From Prolixibacteraceae bacterium (GTDB taxonomy: Bacteria; Bacteroidota; Bacteroidia; Bacteroidales; Prolixibacteraceae), in NCBI GenBank assembly GCA_028683385.1, contig JAQUIJ010000008.1, positions 124,001 through 188,000 of the forward strand: 64,000 nucleotides of DNA, given 5' to 3'. A program made the translations under genes and the position numbers. Numbering within the stretch: position 1 is the stretch's first letter; the number at the start of each line of letters is the position of its first letter. Positions 21,166 through 60,570 of this stretch are shown here, in pieces. Below the pieces are notes generated by a model. It saw nothing but the letters and a program-made list of their open reading frames with translations, was not told the DNA's origin and did not search any database.

Positions 21166-21200
21166 AACTTGAAACTTGAAATTTGGAACTTGAAACTAGA
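21166..21200. repeat. Heptad array (AACTTGA units)
   Basis: Five consecutive 7-base units starting with AACTTGA twice, then AATTTGG, AACTTGA and AACTAGA, ending one base before the ATG at 21202. On the minus strand they read GTTTCAA/GTTCCAA-type units, like the array at 39703. Confidence 0.75.
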
Positions 21201-24648: not shown

Positions 24649-27006
24649 GTGAGCGAATCAAAAAACATACACGAAACTGTTGATCAAATTATCGCTGAAA
24701 AAGGGGTGAAAGGAAAATCCGTCATTCCGATTTTGCAGGCGATTCAAAATACATACAATTATCTTCCGGAGGAAGCGTTAAAATACGTTTGCGAAAAGAC
24801 CGAAATTACTCCGGAACAAATTGTCGGGGTGGCTTCATTTTATTCGCAGTTCCGAATGCAGCCGGTTGGTGAGCACATCATCAAAGTATGCGTTGGAACT
24901 GCTTGCCATGTGAAAGGCGCCGGTCAGGTTTACGATGCTTTCCGCCGTCATTTTAACCTGACCGGGCACGAAGAAACTGATGCTTCGCGAAAATATACCA
25001 TCGAAAAAGTATCGTGCCTCGGTTGTTGTACCTTGGCTCCTGTGGTTCAGATCGATGAAATTACTTACGGACATGTGGCTTCAGACAAAGTTGGTAACGT
25101 GCTTGCCGATTTCGAGAAACATGCCGGAATTTCGAGTGGTAAAAAAGGACTTTTCAGAAATGTTGATGGTGAAGAAATTCAGGGTGAAATCCGATTGGGG
25201 CTGGGTTCCTGTTGTGTGGCTTCGGGAAGCGAAGATGTTAAAAAAGCGGTTGAGGAAACGATTGCCGACACCGGAATTCATATCAGTCTGAAAAATGTCG
25301 GCTGCGTTGGTATGTGTCATCAGGTTCCATTGGTTGAAATTATTCCGAAGGATGGAAAATCAATTTTGTATGCCAAGGTAAAACCCGAAGAAATACAGGG
25401 GATTATTGCTAACCATTTTAAACCGCAAAGTACTTTTGGAATGCTGAAAAGCAGCGTTTATAAGTTCTTTGAAAGCGTGCAGACCGATACGGTTTGGGAC
25501 GGCGTAAAGCAATATTCGATTGATGCCCGCGAAAAGGCGGTGTCCGATTTTCTGGATCGGCAAATCCCAATAGCAACTCAGTATCGTGGTATCATCAATC
25601 CACTCGATATTGAAGAATACAAAAAGCACGAGGGTTTTGAGGCCATGAAAACCTGTTTGTTCGAGCTTTCTCCGGAAAAGATTATTGAAACCATTAAAGA
25701 CAGCGGTTTGCGTGGAAGAGGAGGAGCTGGTTTCCCGACAGGGATGAAATGGGATTTGGTGGCTTATAATCATTCGGATGTAAAATACCTGATTGTCAAT
25801 GGTGATGAAGGAGATCCGGGAGCATTCATGGATCGGATGTTGCTCGAATCTTATCCGTACCGGGTAATCGAGGGCGCTGTTATTGCCGCTAAAGCGGTTG
25901 GTGCCACGCAGGGATTTTTCTACATACGTGCCGAATACCCGTTAGCTGTTAAACGTATCCGTCAGGCGCTAGTCTATTGTCGGGAAAATAATTATCTCGG
26001 CGAAAATATTTTGGGAAGCGGCTTCTCATTCGATATGACCATTTATGAAGGGGCTGGTGCTTTCGTTTGCGGCGAAGAATCTGCGATGATGGCTTCCATA
26101 GAAGGAGAGCGTGGTTTCCCGCGTATTCGTCCGCCTTTCCCTGCGGTGAGAGGCTTGTGGAAACAACCTACGTTGATCAATAATACCGAAACTTTTGCGC
26201 AAGTCTCCTACATCATTCGCGAAGGATCGGCCAAATTTGCTGGCATTGGAAGTGAAAAGAGCAAAGGCACCAAGGTATTTGCATTGGCCGGAAAGGTGAA
26301 TCGGGGTGGATTGATTGAAGTACCGATGGGAATTACCGTTCGTCAGATTGTGGAAGAAATTGGCGGTGGCGTGCAGAATGGAAAGAAATTTAAAGCGGTT
26401 CAAATCGGTGGACCTTCCGGAGGTTGTGTCCCTGCTGAATTGTATGATACGCCAATCGACTACGAATCGCTCCTGAAAGTTGGCGCGATGATGGGTTCGG
26501 GTGGTTTGGTTGTATTGGACGAAGACGATTGTATGGTGGATATTGCCCGCTATTTTTTATCGTTTACGCAGAATGAGTCGTGCGGAAAGTGTACCTTCTG
26601 CCGGGTGGGGACCAAACGAATGCTCGAAATAATGACCAAAATAACTGCCGGAAAGGGAGTGCTAAAAGATTTGGATGAATTGGAATACCTGGCTAAATGG
26701 ACACAAAAAGGAAGCTTGTGTGGGCTGGGACGGTCGGCTCCAAGTCCGGTATTATCAACTTTAAAGTATTTCAGAGAAGAATACATTGCCCACATCAACG
26801 GTAAATGTCCATCGGGCAAATGCCAGAGCCTGATTAAATATCAGATCAACGATTTGTGTATCGGTTGTACCAAATGTGCGCAGAAATGCCCAACCAATGC
26901 CATTTTGTTCAAGCCACACGAAAAGCACGAAGTCATTACCGATCTCTGCATCAAATGCGATGCCTGCCGGGTGGTTTGTCCGGTTGATGCGGTGGAGATC
27001 GTGTAG
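24649..27006 (+). CDS. NuoE-NuoF-ferredoxin fusion, NAD(P)H-linked diaphorase subunit
   Basis: A 785-residue cytoplasmic fusion. Residues 1-155 are a NuoE/HydC-type [2Fe-2S] domain (C81, C86, C123, C127). Residues 180-250 are a second thioredoxin-like [2Fe-2S] domain (C188/C189, C219, C223), as in HydB/HoxF. Residues 320-700 are NuoF, with GRGGAGFPTG at 356-365, NGDEGDPGAF for FMN/NADH, and a [4Fe-4S] site C645, C648, C651, C691. Residues 737-785 are a two-cluster ferredoxin (CIGCTKCAQKC, CIKCDACRVVC). Such proteins oxidise or reduce NAD(P) in hydrogenases, formate dehydrogenases and bifurcating enzymes. The start is GTG. It is followed by a repeat-bounded four-helix gene and then by its likely partner. 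Confidence 0.9.
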   Translation: MSESKNIHETVDQIIAEKGVKGKSVIPILQAIQNTYNYLPEEALKYVCEKTEITPEQIVGVASFYSQFRMQPVGEHIIKVCVGTACHVKGAGQVYDAFRRHFNLTGHEETDASRKYTIEKVSCLGCCTLAPVVQIDEITYGHVASDKVGNVLADFEKHAGISSGKKGLFRNVDGEEIQGEIRLGLGSCCVASGSEDVKKAVEETIADTGIHISLKNVGCVGMCHQVPLVEIIPKDGKSILYAKVKPEEIQGIIANHFKPQSTFGMLKSSVYKFFESVQTDTVWDGVKQYSIDAREKAVSDFLDRQIPIATQYRGIINPLDIEEYKKHEGFEAMKTCLFELSPEKIIETIKDSGLRGRGGAGFPTGMKWDLVAYNHSDVKYLIVNGDEGDPGAFMDRMLLESYPYRVIEGAVIAAKAVGATQGFFYIRAEYPLAVKRIRQALVYCRENNYLGENILGSGFSFDMTIYEGAGAFVCGEESAMMASIEGERGFPRIRPPFPAVRGLWKQPTLINNTETFAQVSYIIREGSAKFAGIGSEKSKGTKVFALAGKVNRGGLIEVPMGITVRQIVEEIGGGVQNGKKFKAVQIGGPSGGCVPAELYDTPIDYESLLKVGAMMGSGGLVVLDEDDCMVDIARYFLSFTQNESCGKCTFCRVGTKRMLEIMTKITAGKGVLKDLDELEYLAKWTQKGSLCGLGRSAPSPVLSTLKYFREEYIAHINGKCPSGKCQSLIKYQINDLCIGCTKCAQKCPTNAILFKPHEKHEVITDLCIKCDACRVVCPVDAVEIV

Positions 27007-27021
27007 GTTACGGGTTACGAG
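27006..27021. repeat. Left inverted heptad arm of the four-helix-bundle element
   Basis: ggttacgggttacgag begins on the last base of the NuoEF stop codon. Its reverse complement matches 27537-27552 at 15 of 16 bases. Further imperfect 7-base units follow to about 27034. Confidence 0.75.
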
Positions 27022-27124
27022 TTTTCGGTCGCGAAGATTGTAGTTGTGATGATCTAATGAGATTATAATGAGAATATGACTGATTGTTTGAGTAAAGTAG
27101 ATGGAAATGAGTTTTTTAACCTGT

Positions 27125-27166
27125 AACTTGAAACTTGAAACAGTTTTCAATAACTCGCAACAATTT
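27125..27166. repeat. AACTTGA pair and 16-base direct repeat, copy 1
   Basis: Two AACTTGA units at 27125-27138, then taactcgcaacaattt at 27151-27166, seven bases before the ATG of the four-helix gene. The 16-mer recurs exactly at 27569-27584 and, inverted, at 59172-59187. Confidence 0.8.
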
Positions 27167-27172
27167 AAAAAC

Positions 27173-27550
27173 ATGAACAGCTATAAAGAACTTGATATTT
27201 ACAAATTGGCTTACCGATTGGCAATAGAGGTTCACAAAATGACCATGACTTTGCCGAAATATGAGTTGTATGAACAAGGGAGTCAGGTTCGGAGATCATC
27301 AAAAAGCATTAAAGATAATGTTGCTGAAGGTTTTGGCAGAAGAAGGTATAAAGATGAATTTGTTCGCTTTCAGGTTTTTGCGCATTCATCATGTGATGAA
27401 GCAATTTCGCAATTGACGATGATCAATGAAATCTATTTTGAAAATAAAGACTTAAACAATTTACTTGAAGAGTATGAAGTTTTGGGTGCTAAAATCAATA
27501 AGTTTATTCAATATATCGAAGAAAACTGGAAATCAACTCGTAACCCATAA
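27173..27550 (+). CDS. Four-helix-bundle protein, S23/IVP (23S rRNA intervening-sequence protein) family
   Basis: A 125-residue soluble protein of the S23-type four-helix-bundle family: YKELDIYKLAYRLAIEVHKMT at the start, LYEQGSQVRRSSKSIKDNVAEGFGR as the hallmark second helix, and LDEA-like helix SSCDEAISQLTMINEIYF. Relatives occur in 23S rRNA intervening sequences and as scattered genes; the DGR accessory protein Avd shares the fold. Function unknown, possibly nucleic-acid binding. Its last codons (STRNP) and stop lie inside the heptad repeat, and the gene splits two functionally linked redox genes, both signs of insertion. ATG 27173 is chosen over the in-frame TTG-type start at 27101. Confidence 0.85.
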   Translation: MNSYKELDIYKLAYRLAIEVHKMTMTLPKYELYEQGSQVRRSSKSIKDNVAEGFGRRRYKDEFVRFQVFAHSSCDEAISQLTMINEIYFENKDLNNLLEEYEVLGAKINKFIQYIEENWKSTRNP

Positions 27551-27584
27551 CCCGCAACTCGAATCACGTAACTCGCAACAATTT
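27537..27584. repeat. Right heptad array of the four-helix-bundle element, with 16-base direct repeat copy 2
   Basis: Six CYCGYAA-like 7-base units, starting inside the end of the four-helix gene. 27537-27552 is the inverted partner of 27006-27021 (15/16), and 27569-27584 is an exact copy of taactcgcaacaattt at 27151. The array ends five bases before the ATG of the next gene. Confidence 0.8.
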
Positions 27585-27589
27585 TTTAA

Positions 27590-29152
27590 ATGATAAAACT
27601 TACCATAGATAATCACTCCATTGAAGTTCCTTTCGGAACTACGGTTTGGCAGGCAGCTCAATCGGTTGGGATTGAAATTCCGACCATGTGTTATTTGGAA
27701 GGAATGGAGCATTTTACCTCGTGCATGATTTGCCTGGTAAAAGACGCTAAGAACGGACGTTTTTTTGCTTCCTGTTCCACACCGGTTTTTGAAGGTCAAT
27801 CCATTATTACGAATGATGAGGAAACCATCGAATCGCGGAAAGCTGCGCTGGAGTTGCTATTGAGCGAACACGTTGGTGATTGTGAAGCCCCATGCCAGTT
27901 GGTTTGTCCGGCTCACATGAATATTCCGTTGATGAACCGACTGATTGCCAAAGACGATTTTGCTAAGGCGCTGGAAGTGGTAAAGCGCGACATTGCATTA
28001 CCTTCTATTTTGGGTCGAATTTGTCCTGCACCATGCGAATCTGGTTGTCGCCGTAAACAGGTTGACGAAGCAGTTTCAATTTGTTTGCTGAAACGATTTG
28101 TAGGCGATGAAGATCTGAAAAATGAAAGACCGTATAAGCCGCAATTGGCCAAACTTTCAGGCAAAAAGGTTGCAATTGTTGGTGCTGGCCCTGCCGGATT
28201 GGCTGCTGCTTATTATTTGCAGATTAAAGGGCATCAGGCTGTAGTTTTTGACAAGAATGATCGTGCGGGTGGCGAATTGCTTCAGATCGATAATGAAATA
28301 TTACCTTCTGAAATCATTGATCAGGAAGTAGCACAAATCGTAGCAACCGGAGTTCAACTTCGATTGAATGAATCGATTAATGAGTTTCGTTTTTTAGAAT
28401 TACAGAAGGAGTTTGATGCGGTTGTTGTAGCTTTTGGAGCTGTTAATGAAAATACATACGATTACGGATTAAAAACGATCAGTACGGGAGTCATTGCTGA
28501 TAAAACCAGTTACCTGACTTCTAGCCCGAATGTTTTTGCTATCGGAAATGCTGTAAGGTACTCGAAAATGGCTGTACGCTCAGTTGGTCAGGGAAAAGAA
28601 GTGGCAGCGGTTATCGATAACTATTTGAAGACTTCAGAAATTAAAGGGTATCCGGAGCGGTTTAATTCCAAATTTGGACGATTGGCTGAGGCGGAATTTC
28701 TTCAATATCAAAAGGACTCGGAAAATTCACCACGACAAAAAGCTGATCAGTCAGGATTTACTAAAGAAGCAGCTATTCGGGAGGCCAAACGCTGTATGCA
28801 CTGTGATTGTCGGAATCCGGAATCGTGTGTTTTGCGCGAATTGTCTGATCGTTATCATGCTGTTCAAAAACGTTTTCAAGGCGAAGAACGGTTTAATGTG
28901 GAGAAGTTTATTCATCGCGAAGGAATTGTTTACGAGCCATCCAAGTGCATCAAATGTGGCATTTGTGTTCGTTTGACCCGGAATCATCAGGAAGAATTTG
29001 GATTTACATTTATTGGCCGTGGTTTCGATGTAAAAGTAGGTGTGCCGTTTAACGAAAGCGTTCAGAAAGGATTAGAAAAAACTGCATCAATTGTTGCCAA
29101 AGCTTGTCCAACTGGTGCGCTTGCCATGTATAATAATGAGGAACAAATCTAA
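27590..29152 (+). CDS. 2Fe-2S/GltD-like FAD/NuoG-like 4Fe-4S adapter protein lacking the NAD(P) domain
   Basis: A 520-residue cytoplasmic Fe-S flavoprotein. Residues 1-75 are a plant-type [2Fe-2S] domain (C34, C45, C48, C62). Residues 98-170 are a GltD/NfnB-type Cys region (C98, C102, C106, C145, C149, C153). FAD site GAGPAG is at 198-203 and closes at FAIGNA (316-321), only about 115 residues later; GltD-type enzymes need roughly 270, so the second Rossmann (NAD(P)) domain is absent. Residues 395-520 resemble the NuoG/Fe-hydrogenase/FdhA ferredoxin domain (C453, C456, C459, C506) but one cluster is incomplete and no H-cluster or molybdenum domain follows. Likely the electron adapter of the NuoEF fusion. 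Confidence 0.82.
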   Translation: MIKLTIDNHSIEVPFGTTVWQAAQSVGIEIPTMCYLEGMEHFTSCMICLVKDAKNGRFFASCSTPVFEGQSIITNDEETIESRKAALELLLSEHVGDCEAPCQLVCPAHMNIPLMNRLIAKDDFAKALEVVKRDIALPSILGRICPAPCESGCRRKQVDEAVSICLLKRFVGDEDLKNERPYKPQLAKLSGKKVAIVGAGPAGLAAAYYLQIKGHQAVVFDKNDRAGGELLQIDNEILPSEIIDQEVAQIVATGVQLRLNESINEFRFLELQKEFDAVVVAFGAVNENTYDYGLKTISTGVIADKTSYLTSSPNVFAIGNAVRYSKMAVRSVGQGKEVAAVIDNYLKTSEIKGYPERFNSKFGRLAEAEFLQYQKDSENSPRQKADQSGFTKEAAIREAKRCMHCDCRNPESCVLRELSDRYHAVQKRFQGEERFNVEKFIHREGIVYEPSKCIKCGICVRLTRNHQEEFGFTFIGRGFDVKVGVPFNESVQKGLEKTASIVAKACPTGALAMYNNEEQI

Positions 29153-59171: not shown

Positions 59172-59244
59172 AAATTGTTGCGAGTTACGAGATACGGGTT
59201 TCGAGTTAAACCCGCAACCCGCAACCCGCAACCCGTAACAAAAA
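59172..59244. repeat. Inverted heptad hairpin array between pepT and tilS
   Basis: Starts on the base after the pepT stop. aaattgttgcgagtta (59172-59187) is the exact reverse complement of the 16-mer at 27151 and 27569. Four GTTRCGR-like units run to 59207, then four CAACCCG-like units run back to 59239. Together they form one long hairpin with no gene inside. Confidence 0.85.
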
Positions 59245-59247
59245 TTT

Positions 59248-60570
59248 ATGGTTGAGCAATTTCTGAAATACATTCACAACGAGAAACTGTTTCATTCGTC
59301 GCAGCGAATTTTGCTGGCGGTGAGTGGCGGAGCCGATTCGATGCTCATGTTGCATTTGTTCGCCAACGCTGGGTTCTCAGTGGCTGTTGCTCATTGTAAT
59401 TTCGGGTTACGTGGTGTCGAATCGGATGGCGATGAACAGTTCGTTGCGGATTATTGTGACAAGCACAATCTGGCTTTTTATGTGAAGCATTTTAATACCC
59501 AGGATTATGCTTTGGAGAAAGGTATTTCGATTGAAATGGCAGCCCGCGACCTTCGCTATGCCTGGTTTGATGGTTTGCTCTCGAAACACAACCTGGATCT
59601 TCTTGCGACTGCGCATCATCAGGACGATGTGATTGAAACATTTCTGATCAACCTTTCCAGGGGCAGTGGAATAAAAGGTTTGAGCGGCATTCAGCCCAAG
59701 TCAGGAAAGATTATTCGCCCGATGCTTTTTACCAACCGGACTGAAATTCTGGATTACTGCCAGCGATTAAAAATTGATTTCCGGACAGATTCCAGTAATG
59801 TCGATACCGTTTACAAACGTAATCTGATTCGTCAGCAGATTTTGCCTTTGCTCGAACGGGTGAACCCTGCTTTCCGGAGAAATGCTTTGAAAACCATAGG
59901 AAACCTTCACGAAACTGGGCTGCTATTTCATCAGCGGATGAGCGAAATAAAATCCTGGGTTTATTCGGAAGATGATCAAGGAGCCATGATTCACATCGAC
60001 AAGTTGCTGACCTTGTATCCAATTCGGACTATTTTGTTTGAATTGATCCGCGAATTTGGGTTTCAGGCAGAACAGGTTGACGATATTATTGATTCGCTGA
60101 CCAAAGAATCGGGACGTAAATTTTTCTCAGGTGAGTACCGTTTGGTGAAAGATCGCGAATATTTGCTTATTTCGCCATTCTTATCGAAACAAGATCAGGT
60201 TTTTTACATCGAAGAGAATTGTCTCAAAATAAACTATCCCATTCATCTTTCGCTTGAAATAATTGATCGGAAATCTGATTTTCGGTTCTCAACGCATCAG
60301 AATATAGCCGATCTGGATCTGGATCAGCTTGTTTTTCCGCTTATTTTACGGCGCTGGCAGGAAGGTGAGTACTTTCAGCCCTTGGGCATGACTGGCATGA
60401 AAAAGCTAAGCGATTTCTTCGTTGATGAGAAATACTCCATTCCGGATAAAGAAAGTGCCTGGATTTTAGCCAGCGGCAATCAACCAATTTGGATCGTTGG
60501 CAAACGCTTGGATGACCGATTCAAGATTACCTCGATAACCAAACGGATTCTGAGAATTACAATGGAATAG
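59248..60570 (+). CDS. tilS: tRNA(Ile)-lysidine synthetase
   Basis: Modifies C34 of tRNA-Ile(CAU) to lysidine, using ATP. The 440-residue protein has the PP-loop LLAVSGGADSMLMLHLF, ATAHHQDDVIETFLINLSRGSGIKGLSG (catalytic), a linker helix domain and the C-terminal TilS domain (RRWQEGEYFQPLGMTGMKKLSDFFVDEK). The gene starts three bases after the heptad hairpin, which may shape its leader. Convergent with the two-component cluster, 42 bases apart. Confidence 0.94.
   Translation: MVEQFLKYIHNEKLFHSSQRILLAVSGGADSMLMLHLFANAGFSVAVAHCNFGLRGVESDGDEQFVADYCDKHNLAFYVKHFNTQDYALEKGISIEMAARDLRYAWFDGLLSKHNLDLLATAHHQDDVIETFLINLSRGSGIKGLSGIQPKSGKIIRPMLFTNRTEILDYCQRLKIDFRTDSSNVDTVYKRNLIRQQILPLLERVNPAFRRNALKTIGNLHETGLLFHQRMSEIKSWVYSEDDQGAMIHIDKLLTLYPIRTILFELIREFGFQAEQVDDIIDSLTKESGRKFFSGEYRLVKDREYLLISPFLSKQDQVFYIEENCLKINYPIHLSLEIIDRKSDFRFSTHQNIADLDLDQLVFPLILRRWQEGEYFQPLGMTGMKKLSDFFVDEKYSIPDKESAWILASGNQPIWIVGKRLDDRFKITSITKRILRITME

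Follow-up and report, generated by a model that had tools for sequence, protein, structure and literature searches.

Here we describe a small gene and the repeats that frame it within 64,000 nucleotides (nt) of a Prolixibacteraceae bacterium (assembly GCA_028683385.1, contig JAQUIJ010000008.1, forward-strand positions 124,001 to 188,000). This whole stretch is called the window, and positions are counted from its first letter. The gene encodes a protein of 125 amino acids (aa) of the S23 family, the four-helix-bundle family of 23S rRNA intervening sequences (IVS). It lies between two host genes and is framed by inverted arrays of heptanucleotides, laid out as follows:

24649–27006, + strand: upstream host gene, a NuoE-NuoF-ferredoxin fusion, with its stop codon abutting the 5′ arm
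27006–27023, + strand: 5′ arm of GTTRCGR heptads (GGTTACGGGTTACGAGTT), predicted to pair with the 3′ arm
27117–27141 (contig 151117–151141), + strand: internal period-7 array TAACCTGTAACTTGAAACTTGAAAC, in the S23 leader
27151–27166, + strand: 16-mer TAACTCGCAACAATTT, directly ahead of the S23 start codon
27173–27550, + strand: S23 / 23S rRNA IVS protein gene, 125 aa, four-helix bundle
27535–27584, + strand: 3′ arm, reverse-oriented heptads over the S23 stop, ending 5 nt short of the next start codon
27569–27584, + strand: second copy of TAACTCGCAACAATTT, directly ahead of the start codon of the downstream gene
27590–29152, + strand: downstream host gene, a ferredoxin / FAD adapter

A preliminary description, made from the letters alone, had placed an S23-type gene between a NuoE-NuoF fusion and a ferredoxin / FAD adapter, and profile matches bore this out. 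The S23 protein matched PF05635 with 84.8 bits (curated cut-off 33.8) and TIGR02436 with 94.7 bits (curated cut-off 24), and its fold agreed with the solved members 2gsc and 2rld against which it was tested. The inverted repeats reported around the gene are present, now measured as 18 nt at 27006–27023 and 27535–27552 with 94% complementarity. The 5′ arm starts at the fusion gene's stop codon, and 27535–27552 covers the last S23 codons and the stop, so that the C-terminal codons are, as had been described, built from the repeat. Exact copies of the 16-mer stand ahead of both start codons (27151 and 27569, + strand), and the third, inverted copy (59172, − strand) does lie in a gene-less stretch that folds as a hairpin. 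By chance, 0.12 matches to the 16-mer would be expected at up to two mismatches, and three copies occurred in 0 of 100 shuffles; the inverted repeat, the direct 16-mers and the inverted third copy are not due to chance. Folding of the RNA from 27001 to 27592 predicted 16.3 expected pairs between the arms, with the S23 gene enclosed, and the arms are accordingly modelled as pairing around the gene in the polycistronic mRNA.

Inverted period-7 flanks at S23 genes

GTTRCGR arrays had also been proposed as something to look for beside other S23 genes, and as a marker of these genes the word did not hold: among the eight PF05635 genes of the genome, an array of that word flanks one, and the other seven have other words. 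Because the literal test failed, we used a word-independent test of inverted flanks instead. Among 195 S23 matches in 23 genomes of the genus, 94 entered this analysis (those fetched that had 200-nt flanks and encoded 95 aa or more, with identical genes entered a single time). Inspected by eye, most S23 genes among the first 37 loci had inverted short-period repeats on both sides, the words varying by site. For scoring, each upstream flank was aligned with its reverse-complemented downstream partner, and flanks taken from different loci served as control. The median score was 20 at the 94 S23 loci versus 11 for mismatched pairs; 75 loci lay above the 95th percentile of the mismatched pairs (16) and 34 above the 99th. 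As a further control, 4.9% of 266 same-size ordinary open reading frames (ORFs) of the window's genome, S23 genes included, exceeded 16. Self-match peaked at lags 7, 14 and 21 in both S23 flanks; profiles of the gene body and of distant DNA were flat, and the lag-7 peak was missing from the flanks of ordinary ORFs.

The unit framed in this way had a median length of 522 nt (10–90%: 446–637) among the 74 loci with an arm score of at least 17 and an upstream ORF of 100 codons. In the same set, the median distance from the upstream stop codon to the start of the 5′ arm was 0 nt (quartiles −16 and 22), and at 40 loci the arm started within −10 to 40 nt of that codon. The upstream neighbour was co-directional at 92 of the 94 S23 loci and both neighbours at 84; as background, the latter arrangement was seen for 600 of 989 ORFs of the window's genome.

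Beyond the genus, S23 was found in 90 of 118 sampled Bacteroidota genomes, and a scan that extended to other phyla, with one genome per GTDB species, confirmed at least 404 S23 loci. Flanks were tested at the best 80 of these, of which 72 were usable; phyla were assigned from record titles, and three loci of unstated phylum were left out of both groups. Scores above the 95th percentile for mismatched pairs from this set were reached by 28 of 38 Bacteroidota loci and by 24 of 31 loci from other phyla, again with a lag-7 peak; the second group includes Clostridia, Acidobacteriota, Planctomycetota, candidate phyla, Cyanobacteria and Cloacimonadota. Four of the 31 (Balneolaceae, Aliifodinibius and two Ignavibacteria) are, we assume, Bacteroidota in GTDB; without them the count is 20 of 27. 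The layout is therefore not confined to the genus.

Arm words and S23 lineages across junctions

Clustered by 45% identity of one flanking gene, a rule under which paralogous operons may be merged, the 94 loci fall into 41 sites, and they sit in many functionally unrelated gene pairs. On the S23 tree, one site may hold unrelated S23 lineages, and close relatives may stand at different sites. Arms were compared with lineage at 86 of the 94 loci (arm score at least 14). Pairs from different sites with an S23 identity of at least 0.7 had a median arm score of 22 (18 pairs, not independent because they are drawn from six groups), those with an identity below 0.3 a median of 7 (2139 pairs), and unrelated S23 genes at the same site likewise a median of 7 (24 pairs). 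Within these alignments, the arm word goes with the S23 lineage and not with the insertion site.

The clearest case comprises L160 and L161 (both in genome G019), L156 and L138, with an S23 DNA identity of 89–97%. Between different junctions, similarity spans about 90 nt upstream and 55–70 nt downstream of the S23 gene, and the alignment of L160 with L138 extends weakly into the host genes. Judged from translations, two of the junctions are adjacent in an ABC-transporter operon and one lies behind an alr-like gene, facing a convergent gene. At this alr-like junction, an S23 match was seen in G019 only, of 20 genomes (within the fetched DNA); 11–12 nt separate the two stop codons in G012 and G022, and in nine other genomes an array of the same word stands on the 5′ side, without S23 (by eye). 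Mobility of the S23 unit, as suggested by such cases, rests on comparison.

Across genomes, the alr-like junction (L248–L266) also carries hairpins built from several words; some seem to lie inside others, which would fit insertion of one such element into another (by eye).

The window's own site in relatives

The comparison of this operon with relatives that had been proposed to look for an S23-less site did yield such sites. Among 21 adapter loci, five genomes (L106–L109, L114) had another gene upstream of the adapter and were left out, giving 16 with the window included; G011 and G022 gave no usable locus. S23 is intact at the site in seven of the 16 genomes, a remnant in one and absent from eight. 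The remnant (L118, in G015) keeps the first S23 codons, followed by a deletion to a 3′ heptad array of the same word, and among the S23-less genomes G007 keeps a short 5′ array of the window's word. The seven intact proteins form one clade, and S23 presence shows five changes on the adapter tree. S23-less spacers at the site often hold other palindromes, some resembling those beside Y1 transposase genes.

Two spacers had features of their own. Upstream in L111 (G014), a hybrid array runs from GTTTAAA through GTTTCAG to GTTGCGG, as if words change stepwise, and the 664-nt spacer before the adapter of G019 (L109) holds an unrelated open stretch.

Solo forms and dispersed heptads

Heptad arrays also occur away from S23, as at two places in the window:

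59172–59250, + strand: solo hairpin of the window's word with no gene inside, heptads in both orientations, predicted fold
21166–21200 (contig 145166–145200), + strand: period-7 array AACTTGAAACTTGAAATTTGG..., no S23

The genes flanking the hairpin are co-directional and, going by their translations, presumably peptidase-like and tilS-like. A pattern search of the genome with GTTRCGRGTTRCGR returned 29 occurrences at 21 places, versus 3 for the reversed control. One of the 21 places carries S23; of the remaining 20, 19 lie between co-directional ORFs and 17 hold heptads in both orientations (by eye). When 79 S23 arms of the genus (score at least 16) were blasted against 1.24 Mb of this genome, 58 matched dispersed copies, versus 16 shuffled and 26 reversed arms. 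The window's own 18-nt arm gave no dispersed copy at the blast cut-off; its copies were found by the pattern search.

At score 13, 20 period-7 arrays were present in 1.237 Mb of the genome versus 0 in a Markov control. Other lags yielded 0–2 (lags 3–6, 9–11 and 13), 6 (lag 8), 4 (lag 12), 16 (lag 14) and 3 (lag 15), and the majority of the period-7 arrays in the 1.24 Mb do not adjoin S23. In a small sample not matched for kinship, 360 kb from nine S23-free Bacteroidota genomes held no period-7 array at score 12 (two at score 11) and five lag-9 arrays, and 400 kb from ten S23-rich genomes held seven period-7 arrays at score 12 (nine at score 11), one of the seven being an arm of the sole S23 gene in that sample. 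Across the genus, then, the earlier picture of a small transposase-less cassette with solo forms gains support, from the same arms at different junctions, from S23-less sites and from the 20 places that carry the word without S23.

Other genes within inverted arms

GxxExxY genes (PF13366, PD-(D/E)XK; L188–L217, 29 of 30 loci usable) stand between inverted CACAGAG-, CACAAAG- or CACAGAT-like arms with a period of about 8–10. Of the 29 loci, 25 scored above 16 and 20 above 22, the 95th percentile for mismatched pairs of GxxExxY flanks, and the layout is therefore not confined to S23. One such gene belongs to the window's own genome:

C19:165657–166067: GxxExxY gene

Another gene of the same genome (C19:162671–163087), which we take to encode a DUF559-like endonuclease, lies between inverted copies of TCACCCCTAAATCCCCTGAAGGGG. 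Y1 transposase genes resembling REP-associated tyrosine transposases (RAYT; REP, repetitive extragenic palindromic) at L267–L274 have short palindromes of their own, some of which resemble, by eye, those in S23-less spacers.

Selection and interpretation

S23 is under purifying selection, with median ratios of nonsynonymous to synonymous substitution (dN/dS) of 0.04–0.11 at six sites, one of them represented by a single pair (pairs had at least 75% nucleotide identity and dS below 1.5). As far as comparison reaches, the unit recurs at many junctions in widely separated bacteria, carries lineage-specific arms, appears to change place, has solo forms and encodes a protein under selection. We consider it reasonably probable that the S23 gene and its two inverted arms are inherited together, as a unit of about 0.5 kb that represents a dispersed, transposase-less relative of the 23S rRNA IVS and sits between genes, in most cases within an operon. 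Its protein, which like Avd is a four-helix bundle, would recognise the unit's own arms as RNA or DNA. Through such recognition the unit could be separated from the mRNA of its host, in the way that RNase III acts on the rRNA IVS, and might be copied to new junctions by that putative route. The solo forms would be either remnants left by deletion or non-autonomous copies.

A wider proposal, which we advance tentatively and would not yet bet on, is that S23 elements constitute a pan-bacterial class of transposase-less mobile elements. Their pentameric, Avd-like protein would recognise its own heptad arms, move the unit from one junction to another, perhaps by way of RNA, and shed gene-less hairpins; the class would then be the source of the excess of bacterial heptameric repeats, including the Xanthomonas GGGAATC pairs.

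Several results weigh against reading the S23 unit as a mobile element. At 19 of the 94 loci the flank score was not above 16, and the window's own locus (L006) is among them: its arm, 18 nt long with a single mismatch, has a score of exactly 16. Only 38 of the 94 flank pairs pass the 5% duplex-energy mark, and coevolution of the arms within a site is weak (47 positive and 25 negative, of 73). Over all different-site pairs, S23 identity and arm similarity have a rank correlation of only 0.04, and the arm-lineage signal is confined to close S23 relatives. Four of the 18 close pairs are themselves low (L030 with L135 scores 6, L030 with L185 scores 5, and L129 with L157 and with L162 scores 12 each), though a longer flank of L030 does hold the word of L135 and L185. 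Self-complementarity, measured over both arms and against random pieces of the genome with terminators included, was above the 95th percentile (23) at only 7 of the 20 solo places and above the 99th (30.01) at 3; solo hairpins are therefore uneven in quality. Comparison of the occupied with the nearly empty alr-like junction revealed neither a target-site duplication nor a clean junction, the ends of the occupied site being inexact because it carries a further array, and no move was caught between strains. The window's own insertion looks old, given that the seven S23 proteins at this site make up a single clade and that a same-word remnant persists in the most divergent relative; it seems to have been lost several times or gained more than once, and the mobility earlier ascribed to this copy is unsupported as a recent move. 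Binding of the S23 protein to its own arms is, in turn, a step that we infer.

Two less probable readings are movement by a transposase supplied in trans and a role for S23 in regulation. In the former case, the arms would be a REP-like family, or one resembling miniature inverted-repeat transposable elements (MITE), moved by a cellular transposase such as a RAYT, with S23 as a captured passenger. This could account for the S23-less places of the word, which outnumber the S23 place 20 to 1; the genome has eight Y1 transposase matches; and GxxExxY genes have the same layout with other arms, at 25 of 29 loci above 16, so that cargo may be interchangeable. We nonetheless think it unlikely, given that the arm word follows the S23 lineage, that the S23-free genome sample is without period-7 arrays at score 12, and that the Y1 genes of the genome are flanked, if at all, by other short palindromes, with no heptad arrays seen at the eight loci (by eye). 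A comparably low probability attaches to S23 as a settled host regulator that binds the heptad hairpin in its operon's mRNA and controls processing or translation of the downstream gene, with solo hairpins as further targets. The strong purifying selection at fixed sites, the excess of loci with both neighbours co-directional (84 of 94, versus 600 of 989 ORFs) and the window's 3′ arm, which stops 5 nt ahead of the next start codon, would all suit such a role, but S23 is missing at the same site in relatives, unrelated S23 lineages share a junction, and S23 lies between many functionally unrelated gene pairs.

That nothing moves, and that heptads arose by polymerase slippage in the slippage-prone spacers of old operon genes with S23 uninvolved, is a reading that we find very hard to sustain. 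Slippage yields no inverted partners across a gene; same-size ordinary ORFs pass the flank threshold in just 4.9% of 266 cases, S23 genes included, with flanks that lack a lag-7 peak; and the same arms occur with S23 at different junctions. What speaks for slippage is that most arrays in the 1.24 Mb do not stand beside S23, and that heptameric repeats are over-represented in many bacteria, for which slippage has been proposed in the available parts of two reports (PMC4692102, PMC4679880).

An inherited S23 unit would matter in several respects. S23 proteins carry only the name 'four helix bundle protein', and the heptad-arm setting gives them a first testable role. Lineage-specific heptad arms would tie the rRNA IVS to a much wider element, and the units could explain why heptameric repeats are over-represented. 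Should S23 proteins recognise their own arms, each combination of an S23 protein and a word would be a natural specificity pair.

Comparison with known systems

Several established systems share parts of this layout. Among the open-access papers searched, none was seen to connect S23 genes with heptad arms, or with mobility, outside rRNA, and S23p and heptameric repeats were joined only for the Coxiella IVS, in the accessible text of PMC4990558. A test for the diversity-generating retroelements of Avd found no reverse transcriptase adjacent to the window's gene, the sole RVT_1 match of the genome lying on another contig (C11, the window's being C28).

REP / RAYT systems, in the forms called REPtrons and TIRtrons in the available part of PMC3733652, resemble S23 units in that a small gene is framed by inverted repeats that are also found alone between genes, and in that solo repeats of the same kind are dispersed, as at the 20 GTTRCGR places without S23. 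The window unit contains no Y1 (HUH) transposase, and all eight PF01797 matches of the genome are on other contigs. Unlike REP / RAYT, the S23 repeats are period-7 arms, and the Y1 genes of the genome have other palindromes; RAYT was rejected as owner of the heptads because the eight Y1 loci carry these instead (by eye).

A closer likeness in the repeats themselves is found in Xanthomonas, where GGGAATC heptads, like S23 arms, form intergenic arrays in inverted pairs. The accessible text of PMC4692102 counts 70 and 75 such pairs in two genomes, places most of them between aligned genes and nearer the upstream gene, treats the repeats as quadruplex-forming, and states that no detailed literature existed on over-represented heptameric repeats; its main text has 0 occurrences of S23. 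X. campestris itself holds the solved S23 protein XCC0516 (2gsc). TAACTGA repeats are heptanucleotide units between genes of Beggiatoaceae and others, including Bacteroidetes, and as described in the available part of PMC4679880 they differ from S23 arms in being one word, in direct orientation with a single inverted case in the described genome, and in a setting for which S23 is not mentioned there.

The 23S rRNA IVS is the system that shares the gene family. In Coxiella, according to the accessible text of PMC4990558, the IVS is excised by RNase III and contains an S23p ORF that has tandem heptameric repeats ahead of its start and is described as undergoing reductive evolution; inverted repeats are named there as a feature of IVSs. 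Like it, the window unit places an S23-family ORF inside inverted repeats of a transcript, with pairing that is here predicted. Unlike it, the window unit does not sit in a 23S rRNA helix and stands between nuoEF-like and adapter genes; and, unlike the Coxiella IVS, S23 units occur many per genome, with different words, solo forms and purifying selection on the protein.

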